Virus record (IMG/VR): IMGVR_UViG_3300009149_000348
Location: 1 to 21,445 of that record
Origin: a virus
Reading direction: 5' to 3' (one strand)
DNA length: 21,445 nt
Position 1 is the stretch's first letter. Each line of letters starts with the position of its first letter. Shown here piece by piece: positions 5,625 through 21,308 of this stretch. The notes below the pieces were generated by a model, which worked only from the letters and a program-made list of their open reading frames with translations, did no database searches and was not told the DNA's origin. A program made the position numbers and the translations under genes.

Positions 5625-5635
5625 TTATAAATATT
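5625..5635 (-). promoter_or_regulatory. AATATTTATAA motif, copy 1 (before DNRLRE-like gene)
   Basis: The minus strand reads AATATTTATAA, ending 2 nt before the ATG at 5622. The same 11-mer precedes two other genes in the structural region (8246 and 11891). It contains or abuts TATAAT-like sequence and might be a late-gene signal. The function is unproven. Confidence 0.3.
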
Positions 5636-7492
5636 ATAATGGAACAACTTTTCCTTTAATATCTTGGTCTGGGTATTTAACCTCAAATATACTTGGGTCT
5701 AATGAGGGGTATATTACTTGATTTTGAGTAGCTCCATTAATATCATAAGAATATTGAGAATATCCAGTTGTTGTTCCTGCTTTATTTGATACAATAGCAT
5801 TTTTAATAGTTTGAACACCTTCTATTCTATCTAAAAGAAGAAATATATCTCTTAATAGAAGGGGTTGATTTATTTGCCATTTATCTCTACTAAAATAATC
5901 TTTTAACCCCCCTATACATTTTAAAAGAACTTCATTATTATTAAATTCAGGGAGTACTATAATTTCAAAATTAATAGCTATGTTTATAATAAAAGCATCT
6001 CTAATTTCAATATTATCACCTATAATTCTATTTTGTGTGAGGTAAGTTCTTAAATTTTTCTTTAAAGTTGGTGATGATTGAGTATATTGACCTTGAGAGT
6101 TTAATCCTAAAGTAAATAAGTTTAAAGTTTCAATTGTAGAGACCTGATCATCTGTTAATAGAGGTTTTTCAATATAAGCTTTTGAAACAGAGCCATATTC
6201 TGAAGGCATACTTAAAGCCCTAACTAAATAATCTTCTGCTGTTACTGATCTTTGTTGGGATGCAATTAGAGCTAATGAGTTTTGCCTAATTTCTTCTAAA
6301 GTATCTCCTCCTCTCCCCCCACTAGCAGCTAATAGATTATTTGATGATAATGAAGAGAATATATAATTTGCGGTTGTTGGGTTTAAATTAATGTTATTAA
6401 ATTTTATTAAAGCTGTTGAAGGGGATGTTAAGGTATTAGCAATTACATTAGAGGAAACCCCCCCACCGGTTAAATATCTTATATCTAAAGATGTATTTGA
6501 TGGTGAGATACCATAAGTATTTGTATATAAGAAATTTGTAGGAGAGTATGCTGATGTTAATTTATCTTGTTCACTAGGTAATCCTATTCCTACATTATTA
6601 GGGTTAGGTATAATTAATTCATCACTATCTAAAGAGGTTCCAGCCCCAAATTGAATTTGGAGGTTTGATAAAGAAGTAAATCGTGTTGTAAATCTTCTCT
6701 GAATTTTATTTAGTTTTAATAAATAAGGCACCTCCCCACTATCTTGAATATTATTAGGATCATTAGCATTAGTATTACTAATTTTATCATAAATCATTTC
6801 TTGTCCTAAATGATCAACTTCATACCATGAATTTCCCTCAGAATCATTTATGTCTAATATTTTAATAATATTAGGAGATTCTAAATTAATTGTTTGAAAT
6901 TGCTGAGGGGCTGTAAAGGTTTGTGTAGAAGTATTTATTACGGCAGATATAGCTTTTCTTGTTTTTTTAAGAAGATAATATTGAGGTGTATTTCCTGAAA
7001 TTTGATAAACAGATATTTCTGTTGGGTCCTGTGATGATGAAATTGAGAAATCTATCTTATCCTGGATTAAGAATAAAGAATTTCCTTGGGTTGGAGAGAC
7101 AGTAGTATTTTCACCCACTGTTAAAGCATAATCAAAATCAGGAACGACAGTACTACCACTAGTTTTAGCAGGAAGTTGTTGATAGAAATCTATATCTACT
7201 TGAGCTACACCTGTTGTTTTTGGTTTGTACCCAAACATATAAGCTAATTCAAATATGTTATTTGTTTGTCTAGCATATTGGATAAAATTCTCTTGAATTT
7301 GATTATCTAAATAAAAACTTAAAACATCCCCAACATAAGCTGATTGTTCCATAAATAACATCCCAGGAGAGGCTTGAGAGAAATCATTATATGTGTTAGG
7401 GAAATATGTTTGAGAAAATTAATGAGTCTATTTCTAAAATCTGTAAAATCTCTATTTAAGTATTTTATATCACGATTAGGAGTTGTAGCCAT
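5634..7492 (-). CDS. gp6: Baseplate wedge protein gp6 (J-like), split by an apparent 1-nt frameshift
   Basis: This is the wedge protein that joins baseplate sectors in contractile-tail phages. The gene begins at the ATG at 7492 (MATTPNRDIKYLNRDF), 1 nt after the gp25 stop. At the AAAA run on the plus strand (7415-7418) the conserved protein moves to the -1 frame, continuing SQTYFPNTYNDFSQASPGML and then AYVGDVLSFYLDNQIQEN, a hallmark of gp6. The downstream frame has a TAA immediately before the junction, and the first frame stops at 7319. The remainder (ATG at 7361, 575 aa) includes GGRGGDTLEEIRQN and TAEDYLVRA, typical of gp6/J. One extra T in the coding strand would restore a protein of about 619 aa. 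Sequencing error, recent mutation and recoding are all possible, and the slippery site is poor. Confidence 0.85.
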
Positions 7493-15423: not shown

Positions 15424-15888
15424 TTATATATATTTAATACCTCGCTCATTAATACCAGCTTTAACTTCATCCAAATCCATACGGAAGAATTCCTTTTGAT
15501 TATTTGTGCGGTATTGTTTAAAATACTTATGAAGCTCAAGTTCTAAACGTAATGCATTAAAACATCTAAACGCATATATAACATCATAAGGCATAGGCAC
15601 TCCAGTTCCACGAGATATTTCTTTAGCACGTTCAACGGGCGACTTTGAAGTTGACCCAATTTTAAGTAACCCGGGCATAGTTGGATTTGATAAAACATAA
15701 ACCCATGAATCTCCCTCCCCATCGCGGTTAATATATTGATCCTCCTTACGGGATGTATAATATGTGACATCTTCCCAATTACCACCTTCCGGTGAAGGTG
15801 TTAAGGTGAAGTATTCAGCAACTCCATTAAGTAACTCATTAGTGTAAGGTACGTAGTTTTTACTTTCTTTGATTGTTATTCTTTTTAT
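15424..15888 (-). CDS. T5orf172/GIY-YIG-like protein lacking a normal start codon
   Basis: The domain reads SWVYVLSNPTMPGLLKIGST (61-80 counting from the proposed start), then SPVERAKEISRGTGVPMPYD (83-102), ELELHKYFKQYRTNNQKEFF and a short C terminus. This is the T5orf172 layout, a GIY-YIG nuclease relative (WVYVL as the GIY strand, LLKIG as the YIG strand, Arg87 as the conserved Arg). The first ATG in frame (15634-15636, MPGL) would delete the GIY strand. The open frame runs back to a stop at 15913-15915 with no ATG, GTG or TTG. An ATA at 15886-15888, just after AAAGGTTAT, would start MKRITIKE and is the best guess (154 aa). Nuclease or DNA-binding activity is inferred from the family. Confidence 0.72.
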   Translation of the reverse strand: MKRITIKESKNYVPYTNELLNGVAEYFTLTPSPEGGNWEDVTYYTSRKEDQYINRDGEGDSWVYVLSNPTMPGLLKIGSTSKSPVERAKEISRGTGVPMPYDVIYAFRCFNALRLELELHKYFKQYRTNNQKEFFRMDLDEVKAGINERGIKYI

Positions 15889-18472: not shown

Positions 18473-18501
18473 AATATAACATCATCTTCCCAAAAGGCCA
18501 A
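18473..18501 (-). promoter_or_regulatory. Early cassette promoter A
   Basis: The -35 box TTGGCC (18496-18501), a 17-bp spacer and an extended -10 TGTTATATT (hexamer 18473-18478) are followed by ATAGTATAAGGAAGG. It serves the 86-aa membrane protein; the leader is about 45-50 nt. Confidence 0.82.
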
Positions 18502-18660
18502 ATGATTTTGAGCTTTTGATTTTTAAATTAAGAGATACTACCCAGGGCATGCCTGGGATGATATGTTGTGTTAGCGGAGTAGGCTCCATTTCTTATAAAT
18601 TCACTTGGCTCTTTCACTAAACCCTATGAATTAAGTTAATACCTTCCCTTATTATACTAT
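18502..18660 (-). ncRNA. Candidate small RNA or empty cassette downstream of promoter B
   Basis: Transcription from promoter B enters about 150 nt with no gene carrying the cassette start context. The minus strand contains GGAG-CCTA-CTCC and the strong hairpin CCCAGG-CATGC-CCTGGG (18541-18557), after which the next promoter begins. A 35-codon frame exists but runs into promoter A. A small RNA or the remnant of a lost gene are the two readings I favour. Confidence 0.35.
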
Positions 18661-18689
18661 AATATAACATCCTCTTATTGGGAGGCCAA
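18661..18689 (-). promoter_or_regulatory. Early cassette promoter B
   Basis: TTGGCC (18684-18689), a 17-bp spacer and TGTTATATT (hexamer 18661-18666), followed by ATAGTATAATAAGGG. No protein gene follows it directly. Confidence 0.8.
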
Positions 18690-19089
18690 GTAGTATATAT
18701 TTTTTTTAAGGATCAAAAAATTTTTAAAGAGAAATCTTTCGTATATCGTGGAAGTTACCTAGGGTGGTTTAAATGGATTTAATGGGGTTGATTTTAACAA
18801 TATATCGTCTGTGTTAGTGGAGTAGGGTAGGGTAGTATATATAGGTATATATTAATCGATGGTAGAGATTTTTATCCTCTATATTCATCACGTTAACACA
18901 ACTACCATACCATATACACGTATATTGATATCAACGATACACGGGATTATAACGTAATCATTACGTACGTACGCAGCACACACAACCATAGATTAATTAT
19001 CAATAATAAATAAGGCGATTATATTATTACGTACGAGGGGGAAAACACTACAGAGTGTAATCCCCACAAAGGCAAAACACTGCCTTCCA
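18690..19089. other. Gene-poor, palindrome-rich region
   Basis: No supportable gene lies here on either strand. The region holds TTGATATCAA (18925-18934), ACGTAAT-C-ATTACGT (18952-18966), repeated ATTACGTACG (18960 and 19027), GTTAAC (18891-18896), a GGTAGGGTAG run near 18825-18834 and two strong hairpins at its right end. A 17-bp segment TGTGTTAGYGGAGTAGG occurs here (18810-18826) and again at 18567-18583. It could be a replication origin, a regulatory region or the site of a lost gene. Confidence 0.6.
19038..19086. terminator. Two consecutive hairpins after the 84-aa gene
   Basis: Hairpin 1 pairs 19038-19042 with 19061-19065 and 19045-19049 with 19054-19058, around a 2x2 internal loop and a 4-nt apex. 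Hairpin 2 pairs AAGGCA (19069-19074) with TGCCTT (19081-19086). They begin 3 nt after the stop codon of the 84-aa gene. No long U-run follows, so factor-independent termination is uncertain; 3'-end protection or processing is also possible. Confidence 0.45.
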
Positions 19090-19344
19090 CTACTCTACAA
19101 TAGTCACATCGGTGTATTTAATTTTAGCAGTTGTTTTATTACCCATCATATCGAATGTATAAAGTGTAATGCATGTTGGACCGAATTTGTTAATATTCAT
19201 TTGTGAATATAACCTTGTAATAGCACCATTAATACCTTTATAATTGAGACAACATGCTGTGAAAGCAAGCTCACCATAGCCTAGTAATGTGAATTCTATT
19301 TTCTCTACAGTCATTAATGCATTTCTAATTTCTTTTACTGTCAT
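19090..19344 (-). CDS. Hypothetical early cassette protein, 84 aa
   Basis: A small soluble protein with no recognised family. It has a helical first 20 residues (MTVKEIRNALMTVEKIEFTL), a Cys pair (TACCLNY) and a beta-rich C-terminal part (TCITLYTFDMMGNKTTAKIK). The start at 19344 lies in the shared AATTAAGGTTATG context, 43 nt from the -10 hexamer of promoter C, and two hairpins follow the stop. It is a self-contained one-gene cassette. Confidence 0.75.
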   Translation of the reverse strand: MTVKEIRNALMTVEKIEFTLLGYGELAFTACCLNYKGINGAITRLYSQMNINKFGPTCITLYTFDMMGNKTTAKIKYTDVTIVE

Positions 19345-19387
19345 AACCTTAATTTTAACTTAATATATCGTTTTCTTCCTACACCGT

Positions 19388-19416
19388 AATATAACATTCT
19401 TTCCCCATTAAGCCAA
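19388..19416 (-). promoter_or_regulatory. Early cassette promoter C
   Basis: TTGGCT (19411-19416), a 17-bp spacer and an extended -10 ending in TATATT (19388-19393), here reading TGTTATATTACGG. It serves the 84-aa gene. Confidence 0.82.
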
Positions 19417-19475
19417 TCCATTGGAATAGGAGGTGTTTCCACCCCCTATAACAACTTAATATAATTTATTTACTA

Positions 19476-19913
19476 TTACTTAATCAACTCAGCAACTGCA
19501 TTATTAACTAATTCATCAATTTCTATATTGAATGACTTCTTAGCTTCAGCTTCAGCTAATTTAATTTGTCTCTTACTTGTTGGATTAACTGGTCTACCTT
19601 TACTTAACGTCCCATTACTTCGTTTTAAATCTAACTTAGCTAATCTAATTTGACGTTTTGAATTAGCATCTACTGGGCGACCTTTCTTTAATGTACCATT
19701 TTCTCTCTTAACATTCAAATCATTAATTCGAATTTGTCTCTTACTCTCATTATTAATTGGACGCCCTCTTTTTAACTCACCATTTTTTCTCTTAACATCT
19801 AATTCAGCTAATCTAATCTGTCTCTTACTTGTTGGATTAACTGGTCTACCTTTTTTTAAGATATCTACAACTACTACTTTCTTCTTACTCTTAACAATTT
19901 TTACATTTTTCAT
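19476..19913 (-). CDS. AT-hook-like repeat protein, 145 aa
   Basis: After a Lys/Val-rich lead (MKNVKIVKSKKKVVVVDI) the protein consists of four 28-residue repeats, each opening L-(K/S)-(K/R)-G-R-P at residues 19-24, 47-52, 75-80 and 103-108, followed by S-K-R-Q-I-(R/K) and a charged K-R-x-N-G end. GRP flanked by Lys/Arg is the core of AT-hooks, which bind the minor groove of A/T-rich DNA; the second repeat has the canonical KRGRP. An acidic-to-neutral helix (EIDELVNNAVAELIK) closes the protein. A role coating or bending the A/T-rich phage or host DNA is inferred. The start has the AAAGGTTATG context. Confidence 0.82.
   Translation of the reverse strand: MKNVKIVKSKKKVVVVDILKKGRPVNPTSKRQIRLAELDVKRKNGELKRGRPINNESKRQIRINDLNVKRENGTLKKGRPVDANSKRQIRLAKLDLKRSNGTLSKGRPVNPTSKRQIKLAEAEAKKSFNIEIDELVNNAVAELIK
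19524..19859 (-). repeat. Four in-frame 84-bp coding repeats
   Basis: The 28-residue protein repeats are encoded by diverged 84-bp units. The first and last begin with the same stretch, GRPVNPTSKRQI, while the second and third differ more. This suggests duplication or recombination between the outer copies. Confidence 0.8.
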
Positions 19914-19964
19914 AACCTTTATTTATTTAATTTATACTTATTTATTTACCCTTCCTTATACCCT

Positions 19965-19993
19965 AATATAACATCTCTCTCCCCGTTATCCAA
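19965..19993 (-). promoter_or_regulatory. Early cassette promoter D
   Basis: TTGGAT (19988-19993), a 17-bp spacer and TGTTATATT (hexamer 19965-19970), then AGGGTATAAGGAAGG. It serves the AT-hook-like gene with a leader of about 45 nt. This is the only intact copy whose -35 box departs from TTGGC. Confidence 0.8.
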
Positions 19994-20050
19994 ACCAACT
20001 CAACCTAACCTTTTATTTAACTACTTGATAACGCTTTCTTCTTATATCCT

Positions 20051-20079
20051 AATATAACATCCTTTCCCCCGTAAGCCAA
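20051..20079 (-). promoter_or_regulatory. Early cassette promoter E (no gene follows)
   Basis: TTGGCT (20074-20079), a 17-bp spacer and TGTTATATT (hexamer 20051-20056). Only about 55 nt separate it from promoter D. The leader contains AAAAGGTTAGG (20004-20014), close to the usual start context but with no ATG. Confidence 0.8.
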
Positions 20080-20108
20080 TATTTTGGTTGGTGGGGAGAT
20101 ATTAAATC

Positions 20109-20312
20109 TTAATACTTTCGTGCGTGCTTCCCTCTACGTTTTTCAGTTGATATATCAAATGTTTCTAATCTAACAAACATATTACTAAATTCTTCATCTC
20201 TAATAATCCTCATCATCTCCATTGCTGTGTCTGCTGACTTAGCAAACGCTTGCTCTACTCCTCTAACATTAATAATTGCTCTAAACTTTGTCTTAAATAA
20301 TTCCTTTTTCAT
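20109..20312 (-). CDS. Small basic early protein, 67 aa
   Basis: A mixed alpha/beta protein with a basic start (MKKELFKTKFRAIINVRGVE), a central helix (ADTAMEMMRIIRDEE) and a very basic end (EKRRGKHARKY) that could bind nucleic acid. No family is recognised. The start has the AAAGGTTATG context. Its promoter copy is degraded (20343-20348). Promoter E begins 29 nt beyond its stop. Confidence 0.72.
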   Translation of the reverse strand: MKKELFKTKFRAIINVRGVEQAFAKSADTAMEMMRIIRDEEFSNMFVRLETFDISTEKRRGKHARKY

Positions 20313-20342
20313 AACCTTTATTTTTATTTTTTCTTATACTTA

Positions 20343-20348
20343 AATATA
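20343..20348 (-). promoter_or_regulatory. Degraded cassette promoter before the 67-aa gene
   Basis: A -10-like TATATT followed by TAAGTATAAGAAAA matches the downstream part of the other copies, but the TG extension is replaced (TTCG) and no TTGG lies 17 bp upstream. It may be weak or inactive, with expression by read-through from promoter F. Confidence 0.4.
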
Positions 20349-20380
20349 CGAACTTTGTTTTGATTCTTATATTCCTCTAA

Positions 20381-21073: not shown

Positions 21074-21308
21074 ATTTTAGTTGGGGTATTAATAAGGTAC
21101 ACGACGGTGAAGGAAAGGCAAATAAGGCATATGACGGTGGGGGAAAGGAGGCACTCACGGCAGTGGTGTCCCCTTTGCATGATATGTAGGCAAGGAGGCT
21201 ACCCTCCCCAACCTTGTGTGTTGAAGTGTTATTTCTCTGCACTCCTCAGCCAAGTTTGGTTAGCTCTGCAACATTTTCAATTACTTCTTACCCCCTTTTA
21301 CCTGCTAT
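21074..21308 (-). ncRNA. Candidate structured RNA downstream of promoter I
   Basis: This stretch is visibly richer in G and C than the rest of the window. It lies between promoter I and promoter H and has no supportable gene; the one long frame reads straight through promoter H. It contains a GGAGG-GTAG-CCTCC hairpin (near 21196-21209) and a 30-bp tandem duplication. A small RNA is the simplest reading, and foreign DNA or an eroded gene are alternatives. Confidence 0.35.
21091..21150. repeat. 30-bp tandem duplication
   Basis: Units at 21091-21120 and 21121-21150 both begin AATAAGG and share GACGGTG and GGAAAGG. They match at 23 of 30 positions, and most differences are transitions. It lies inside the GC-richer segment. 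Confidence 0.8.

Follow-up and report, generated by a model that had tools for sequence, protein, structure and literature searches.

The window analysed here is the entire record of an uncultured T4-like phage (21,445 bases; at 29% GC, as A/T-rich as the initial annotation had it), and its T4-type baseplate genes run leftward as a set. Among isolates, its gp6-like wedge protein (5634-7361) has its nearest relatives, about 44% identical, in a Microcystis phage and in Flavobacterium immuto phages; hundreds of further relatives are found in IMG/VR, many of them far closer than the isolate ones. Here, we describe a small gene of this phage whose product is built from four tandem units, and the family of phage proteins to which it belongs. 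The gene and its parts are as follows (helices are given in residues of the AlphaFold2 model).

19476-19913, minus strand: ORF of the hook-helix repeat protein, ATG start, 145 aa, from the ORF and its translation
19800-19883, minus strand: unit 1 (KKVVVVDILKKGRPVNPTSKRQIRLAEL), from the repeat alignment; modelled helix 30-44
19716-19799, minus strand: unit 2 (DVKRKNGELKRGRPINNESKRQIRINDL); modelled helix 58-72; the sole canonical RGRP core in the window
19632-19715, minus strand: unit 3 (NVKRENGTLKKGRPVDANSKRQIRLAKL), from the repeat alignment; modelled helix 86-100
19548-19631, minus strand: unit 4 (DLKRSNGTLSKGRPVNPTSKRQIKLAEA), with 35 nt of its core identical to unit 1
19479-19547, minus strand: C-terminal extension without a hook, which continues modelled helix 114-144

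The protein is strongly basic (pI 11.0, net charge +25, with 40 K/R against 15 D/E). Its four units start exactly 84 nt apart, all in register, and at a lag of 28 the sequence matches itself at 52 of 117 residues, whereas none of 20,000 residue shuffles exceeded 26; the four-unit repeat is far beyond chance, and the four 28-residue repeats with S-K-R-Q-I read in the initial annotation are confirmed. The residues constant across all four units in the repeat alignment are L, G-R-P and S-K-R-Q-I. The outer repeats had been called identical. Units 1 and 4 do have GRPVNPTSKRQI and an exact stretch of 35 nt in common, but over the whole 28 residues they reach only 61% identity in protein and 71% in DNA, so that the claim is right in part. 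Used directly as a query, the window protein found no homologue in Pfam, PHROGs, PDB or GenBank phages.

AT-hooks are usually described as a GRP with basic residues on its flanks (PMC11354804), and binding is weaker for hooks whose sequence differs from that of HMGA (PMC5028900). All four window units have the G-R-P core with basic flanks that had been noticed in the letters, with K or R at position -1 in each; the canonical R-G-R-P core is seen in only one of the four (KRGRP in unit 2), the other three being KKGRP, KKGRP and SKGRP, and the residue after the P is V or I in every hook. A search of the window record with Pfam AT_hook (PF02178) gave no match, and AT-hook-like is therefore the furthest label that the sequence allows: it suits a basic protein with several hooks and GRPs modelled as exposed, but not a canonical AT-hook.

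The AlphaFold2 model of the window protein, built from an alignment of 13 sequences, has four helices (30-44, 58-72, 86-100 and 114-144), each beginning at the invariant serine, and the extended linkers between them contain the GRPs. The hooks are thus predicted to be extended and exposed, and the outcome which the initial annotation had named as contrary to its reading, i.e., GRPs buried within an unrelated fold, is not what the model suggests. The confidence of the model (mean pLDDT 79.8, pTM 0.30) is local only, and the predicted helices have no fixed overall packing. When the model was compared with PDB and BFVD by Foldseek, nothing significant came out, as is expected at a pTM of 0.30; a test of helix amphipathicity was likewise not significant.

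The initial annotation had proposed looking for the repeat in other phages and for variation of its number among relatives, and both exist. The first relatives came from reading the motif in contigs that share the baseplate gene of the window; profiles built from these found 15 and then 93 stretches in IMG/VR viral contigs, a few more were added with a DNA pattern, and 86 complete, distinct relatives were extracted. The family comprises about 90 phage proteins, previously without a name, and it appears to be undescribed in the libraries searched, with no Pfam or PHROGs name. Two scans of bacterial and archaeal genomes gave no confirmed relative, although the same alignments had given the 15 and 93 viral-contig stretches. 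No family member turned up when an immuto phage, Mel-JY01 and LR756508 were searched with a profile over their full records. In GenBank phages, tblastn with four other queries gave no match at E limits as loose as 1 or 10, which is weak evidence of absence because low-complexity filtering may have acted. The family is one of large phages, and these probably infect Bacteroidota. Some records hold two copies close together.

Three cores are present in 67 of the 86 proteins, and 73 of 86 have four GRP-type hooks because most chains finish with a short GRP[KA] tail. The window protein is atypical: a fourth full unit stands where most relatives have this tail, and a terminal GRP[KA] is absent. It is also more basic (+25) than the family mean (net charge +14). 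About 16 relatives carry an N-terminal segment of 35 residues, absent from the window protein, with two predicted helices and a weak similarity to Rho_N, a nucleic-acid-binding domain; the similarity is below the cut-off (best E 0.023 in Pfam), no structural match was found for this segment, and we attach little importance to the likeness.

Across the family the unit reads GRP[VI]N..S.RQ.R[LI]. Among 247 GR-anchored units from the 86 proteins, collected with neither S nor RQ required for inclusion, S is found in 100%, R in 94%, Q in 93% and the second R in 88%, and P follows GR in 93%. The spacing between hooks is 28 in 150 of 247 cases; the others are 27, 29 and 30, plus a shorter class, 22, that has lost most of the helix and kept GRPVNPDS.RQ.RL, for which reason this core looks like the functional minimum. 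A strict S, R, Q and R at spacings from 22 to 30 residues would also fit a short linear motif repeated for avidity, that is, a multivalent protein-binding scaffold in which every unit docks one partner (for instance a host nucleoid protein or RNA polymerase) through the S-x-R-Q-x-R start of its helix. We regard such a scaffold as fairly unlikely, given that GR(P) is as strictly conserved as the helix start and that positive charge is high throughout.

The reading we favour, and hold to be probable, is that of a phage-encoded multivalent nucleic-acid-binding protein, AT-hook-like and acting most likely on double-stranded A/T-rich DNA. The hooks of the relatives bear on it. R stands before GRP in 39% of the family hooks that precede a core and in 58 of the 86 terminal hooks; the remaining 61% of the hooks preceding a core have other residues there (L 32%, K 18%, Q 6%). 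The terminal hooks of relatives, KRGRP[KA].K, come close to the canonical AT-hook. A 166-kb record (G020) has three AT_hook matches, two of which are the terminal hooks of family members, with 15.6 and 14.1 bits against the curated Pfam cut-off of 17.4 bits; the terminal hook of another member (L192), with 15.5 bits, is also below it. The other AT_hook matches in five large records include RGRP tags at the N-termini of DnaB/UvsX-like ATPases, and a 171-aa protein whose RGRP hooks are C-terminal. Proteins of these two kinds in related phages are:

L213:573-1001 and L214:596-1300, minus strand: DnaB/UvsX-like ATPases starting with RGRPAK hooks, as if DNA-tethered
L110:1489-2079 and L211:765-1283, minus strand: a distinct phage protein of 171-196 aa; its N-terminal domain is conserved, and its C-terminus bears two to four RGRP hooks

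RGRP hooks therefore seem to be used on likely DNA-transaction proteins of these phages, which is suggestive in favour of a DNA-hook reading. RGRP also seemed to be in excess outside the family in the loci examined, but this was rejected as biased, since those loci had been picked because they had the motif or matched the family; the unbiased counterpart of that count is the AT_hook search over whole genomes. A rival reading is an RNA binder, in which basic hooks and R-Q-x-R helices would hold mRNA, tRNA or ribosomes during takeover, and the Rho_N-like segment of some relatives would do likewise. Very basic flexible repeats are common among RNA-binding proteins, and the weak N-terminal similarity of the relatives is to the Rho N-terminal domain; against this, the GRP core is the signature of minor-groove DNA hooks (PMC11354804), the terminal hooks of relatives are near the AT_hook model, and hooks of a similar sort are present on DNA-helicase/recombinase-like ATPases of these phages. 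RNA binding thus seems to us unlikely.

The family is under purifying selection, with a median dN/dS of 0.23 over 193 close pairs. Within the window protein the invariant residues are encoded by codons that differ from unit to unit, and so they are kept by selection at the protein level, not only by recent copying. Units inside one protein have a mean DNA identity of 66.5%, compared with 60.1% for same-position units of other proteins, and the arrays are nearly homogenised in some relatives; both lend support, at the level of sequence, to the repeat turnover suggested earlier for the window, where units 1 and 4 share their 35 nt. Since the core of unit 4 copies that of unit 1, recombination within the array is the simplest account, and we infer that the fourth unit of the window protein arose in this way.

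The position of the family genes is conserved: they lie among clustered small genes, immediately upstream of the baseplate module. Their same-strand neighbours downstream encode a GIY-YIG/T5orf172 protein (at 45 loci), then proteins of about 140 aa (37 loci) and about 259 aa (29 loci), after which comes the virion module; these neighbours correspond to the window ORFs at 15424, 14499, 13519 and 11901. The first of these is:

15424-15678, minus strand: GIY-YIG/T5orf172 ORF, 84 aa, with an overlapping frame upstream at 15543-15785

In related loci the counterpart at the same place is about 154 aa long, and from this and the overlapping upstream frame the window copy looks truncated or frameshifted. 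The family gene is upstream of gp6 on the same strand, at about 12 kb in the window and about 14 kb in a 160-kb record (G010). A gene 9-14 kb upstream of gp6 on its strand, in the window and in relatives, with a very basic product, might encode a virion-associated internal protein that is packaged with the genome and neutralises DNA charge in the head. We consider this very improbable: the gene lies in the small-gene cluster and is preceded by host-type promoter-like sites, which virion genes are without.

The tandem promoters that had been ascribed to the gene are real as sequence. The promoter-like sites nearest to it are:

19958-19995, minus strand: proximal promoter-like site (TTGGATAAC...TGTTATATTAGGG), upstream of 19476-19913
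20044-20081, minus strand: distal promoter-like site of the tandem pair (TTGGCTTAC...TGTTATATTAGG), upstream of 19476-19913
19381-19418, minus strand: promoter-like site of the next small ORF (19090-19344), outside the repeat gene

They belong to nine near-identical minus-strand copies, between 18466 and 21339, of a 38-base motif, approximately TTGGCTTA-NN-GGG-AAAGG-ATGTTATATTAGGG (TTGGCTTA...TGTTATATTA), mostly one per small ORF, with two before the repeat gene and none in virion genes. The nine sites score 25.6 or more, the best other in the window 11.5, and a search with the core pattern found four where 0.00 are expected by chance; judged from their sequence, the nine appear to form a clear class of promoter-like sites for this phage. 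Their TTTG...TAnnTTxG pattern resembles the primary promoter consensus of Bacteroidota. A TAnnTTTG element is named in a study of Flavobacterium johnsoniae (PMC6847099). Two stretches of the window, 18500-19080 and 21080-21300, contain no convincing ORF and both lie downstream of promoter-like sites; the second includes a 30-bp tandem repeat at 21091-21148. They are possibly small RNAs; neither an Rfam nor a tRNA scan of the window gave a match.

Most relatives have a different motif, CGTATATT-N3-TATAA, about 30-60 nt upstream. Four large records (G021, G022, G023 and G024) have 4 to 14 copies each, always on the strand of the member and mostly clustered near it, and the reversed control in these four gave zero copies. 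The window has one such site:

20334-20350, minus strand: CGTATATT-N3-TATAA, in front of ORF 20109-20312

With two host-type promoter-like sites before the gene and a small-gene cluster adjoining the virion genes, early production by the host RNA polymerase is probable, and the likely expression is of an early type.

We thus return to a multi-hook DNA binder, for which we infer DNA binding, its minor-groove mode, the A/T preference, the early timing and the role. Each flexible linker would present one GRP hook of the AT-hook type into the narrow minor groove. The short helix after it would start at the invariant serine, likely an N-cap; its near-invariant R-Q-x-R may add contacts to the backbone or the groove, and the helix itself would fix the 28-residue distance between hooks. 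Several weak hooks in series could then give avid binding with little sequence specificity, in the manner of HMGA. The gene would probably be expressed early through the host RNA polymerase, and the product may coat or organise phage DNA, or alter DNA-bound proteins of the host, much like the role proposed for T4 MotB. Whether it would be a coat of phage DNA, a counter to host nucleoid proteins or something else, the sequence does not discriminate, and no result points specifically to the DNA coating or the disruption of the host nucleoid suggested in the initial annotation. A bolder proposal, which we put forward tentatively and think possible rather than probable, is that GRP[VI]N..S.RQ.R[LI].EL..KR..G is a DNA-binding repeat of a new, bipartite kind, with a minor-groove hook joined to a Ser-capped R-Q-x-R helix, and the building block of an unrecognised, widespread chromatin-like family of large phages, probably of Bacteroidota.

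This conserved, selected, repeat-built basic protein, which has no Pfam or PHROGs name, is carried by at least 86 uncultured phage sequences. Should it bind DNA, phages would have in it their own counterpart of the HMGA-type architectural proteins; its clear modular unit, which can be altered in number and spacing, would let the additive effect of weak hooks be tested; and it would be a candidate takeover factor for Bacteroidota phages, whose known early functions are few.

Among known systems, the NUMOD3 repeats (PF07460) of homing endonucleases are also short, basic and arranged in tandem, and in each a G-[RK] turn leads into a helix capped by Ser. Identity with NUMOD3 was rejected: neither 13 plus 9 family members (E up to 10) nor the window gave a match to its Pfam profile, NUMOD3 matches in the genomes of relatives fall in other frames of 179-313 residues, and the hook-helix protein, unlike these endonucleases, has no nuclease domain. 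H-NS/Lsr2 proteins share with the proposed mode a minor-groove loop round an R-G-R core, a Q/RGR AT-hook-like loop and an A/T preference (PMC7074111); the window model, in contrast, is a string of helices without an oligomerisation domain or a C-terminal fold of the H-NS/Lsr2 type, and no Pfam family was matched. T4 MotB is an early non-specific DNA-binding protein, toxic on overproduction, that copurifies with H-NS (PMC6070864, PMC7827196), and an AT-hook is not mentioned in the former paper. MotB and the window protein are both small basic proteins of T4-like phages with a host-type promoter (promoter-like sites in the window) and a proposed action as DNA binder on host or phage chromatin; likened by description, MotB is the closest analogue in role rather than a shown relative, and Pfam and PHROG searches gave the window protein no convincing match. 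To AT-hook/HMGA proteins (PF02178) the likeness lies in the basic-flanked GRP, several hooks per chain, flexible exposed linkers and the context of an A/T-rich genome, whereas here every hook is joined directly to a conserved S.RQ.R helix and has V or I after the P, where canonical hooks usually have K/R. As a kind, then, the hook-helix protein would appear to be a variant of the multi-hook DNA-binding proteins.
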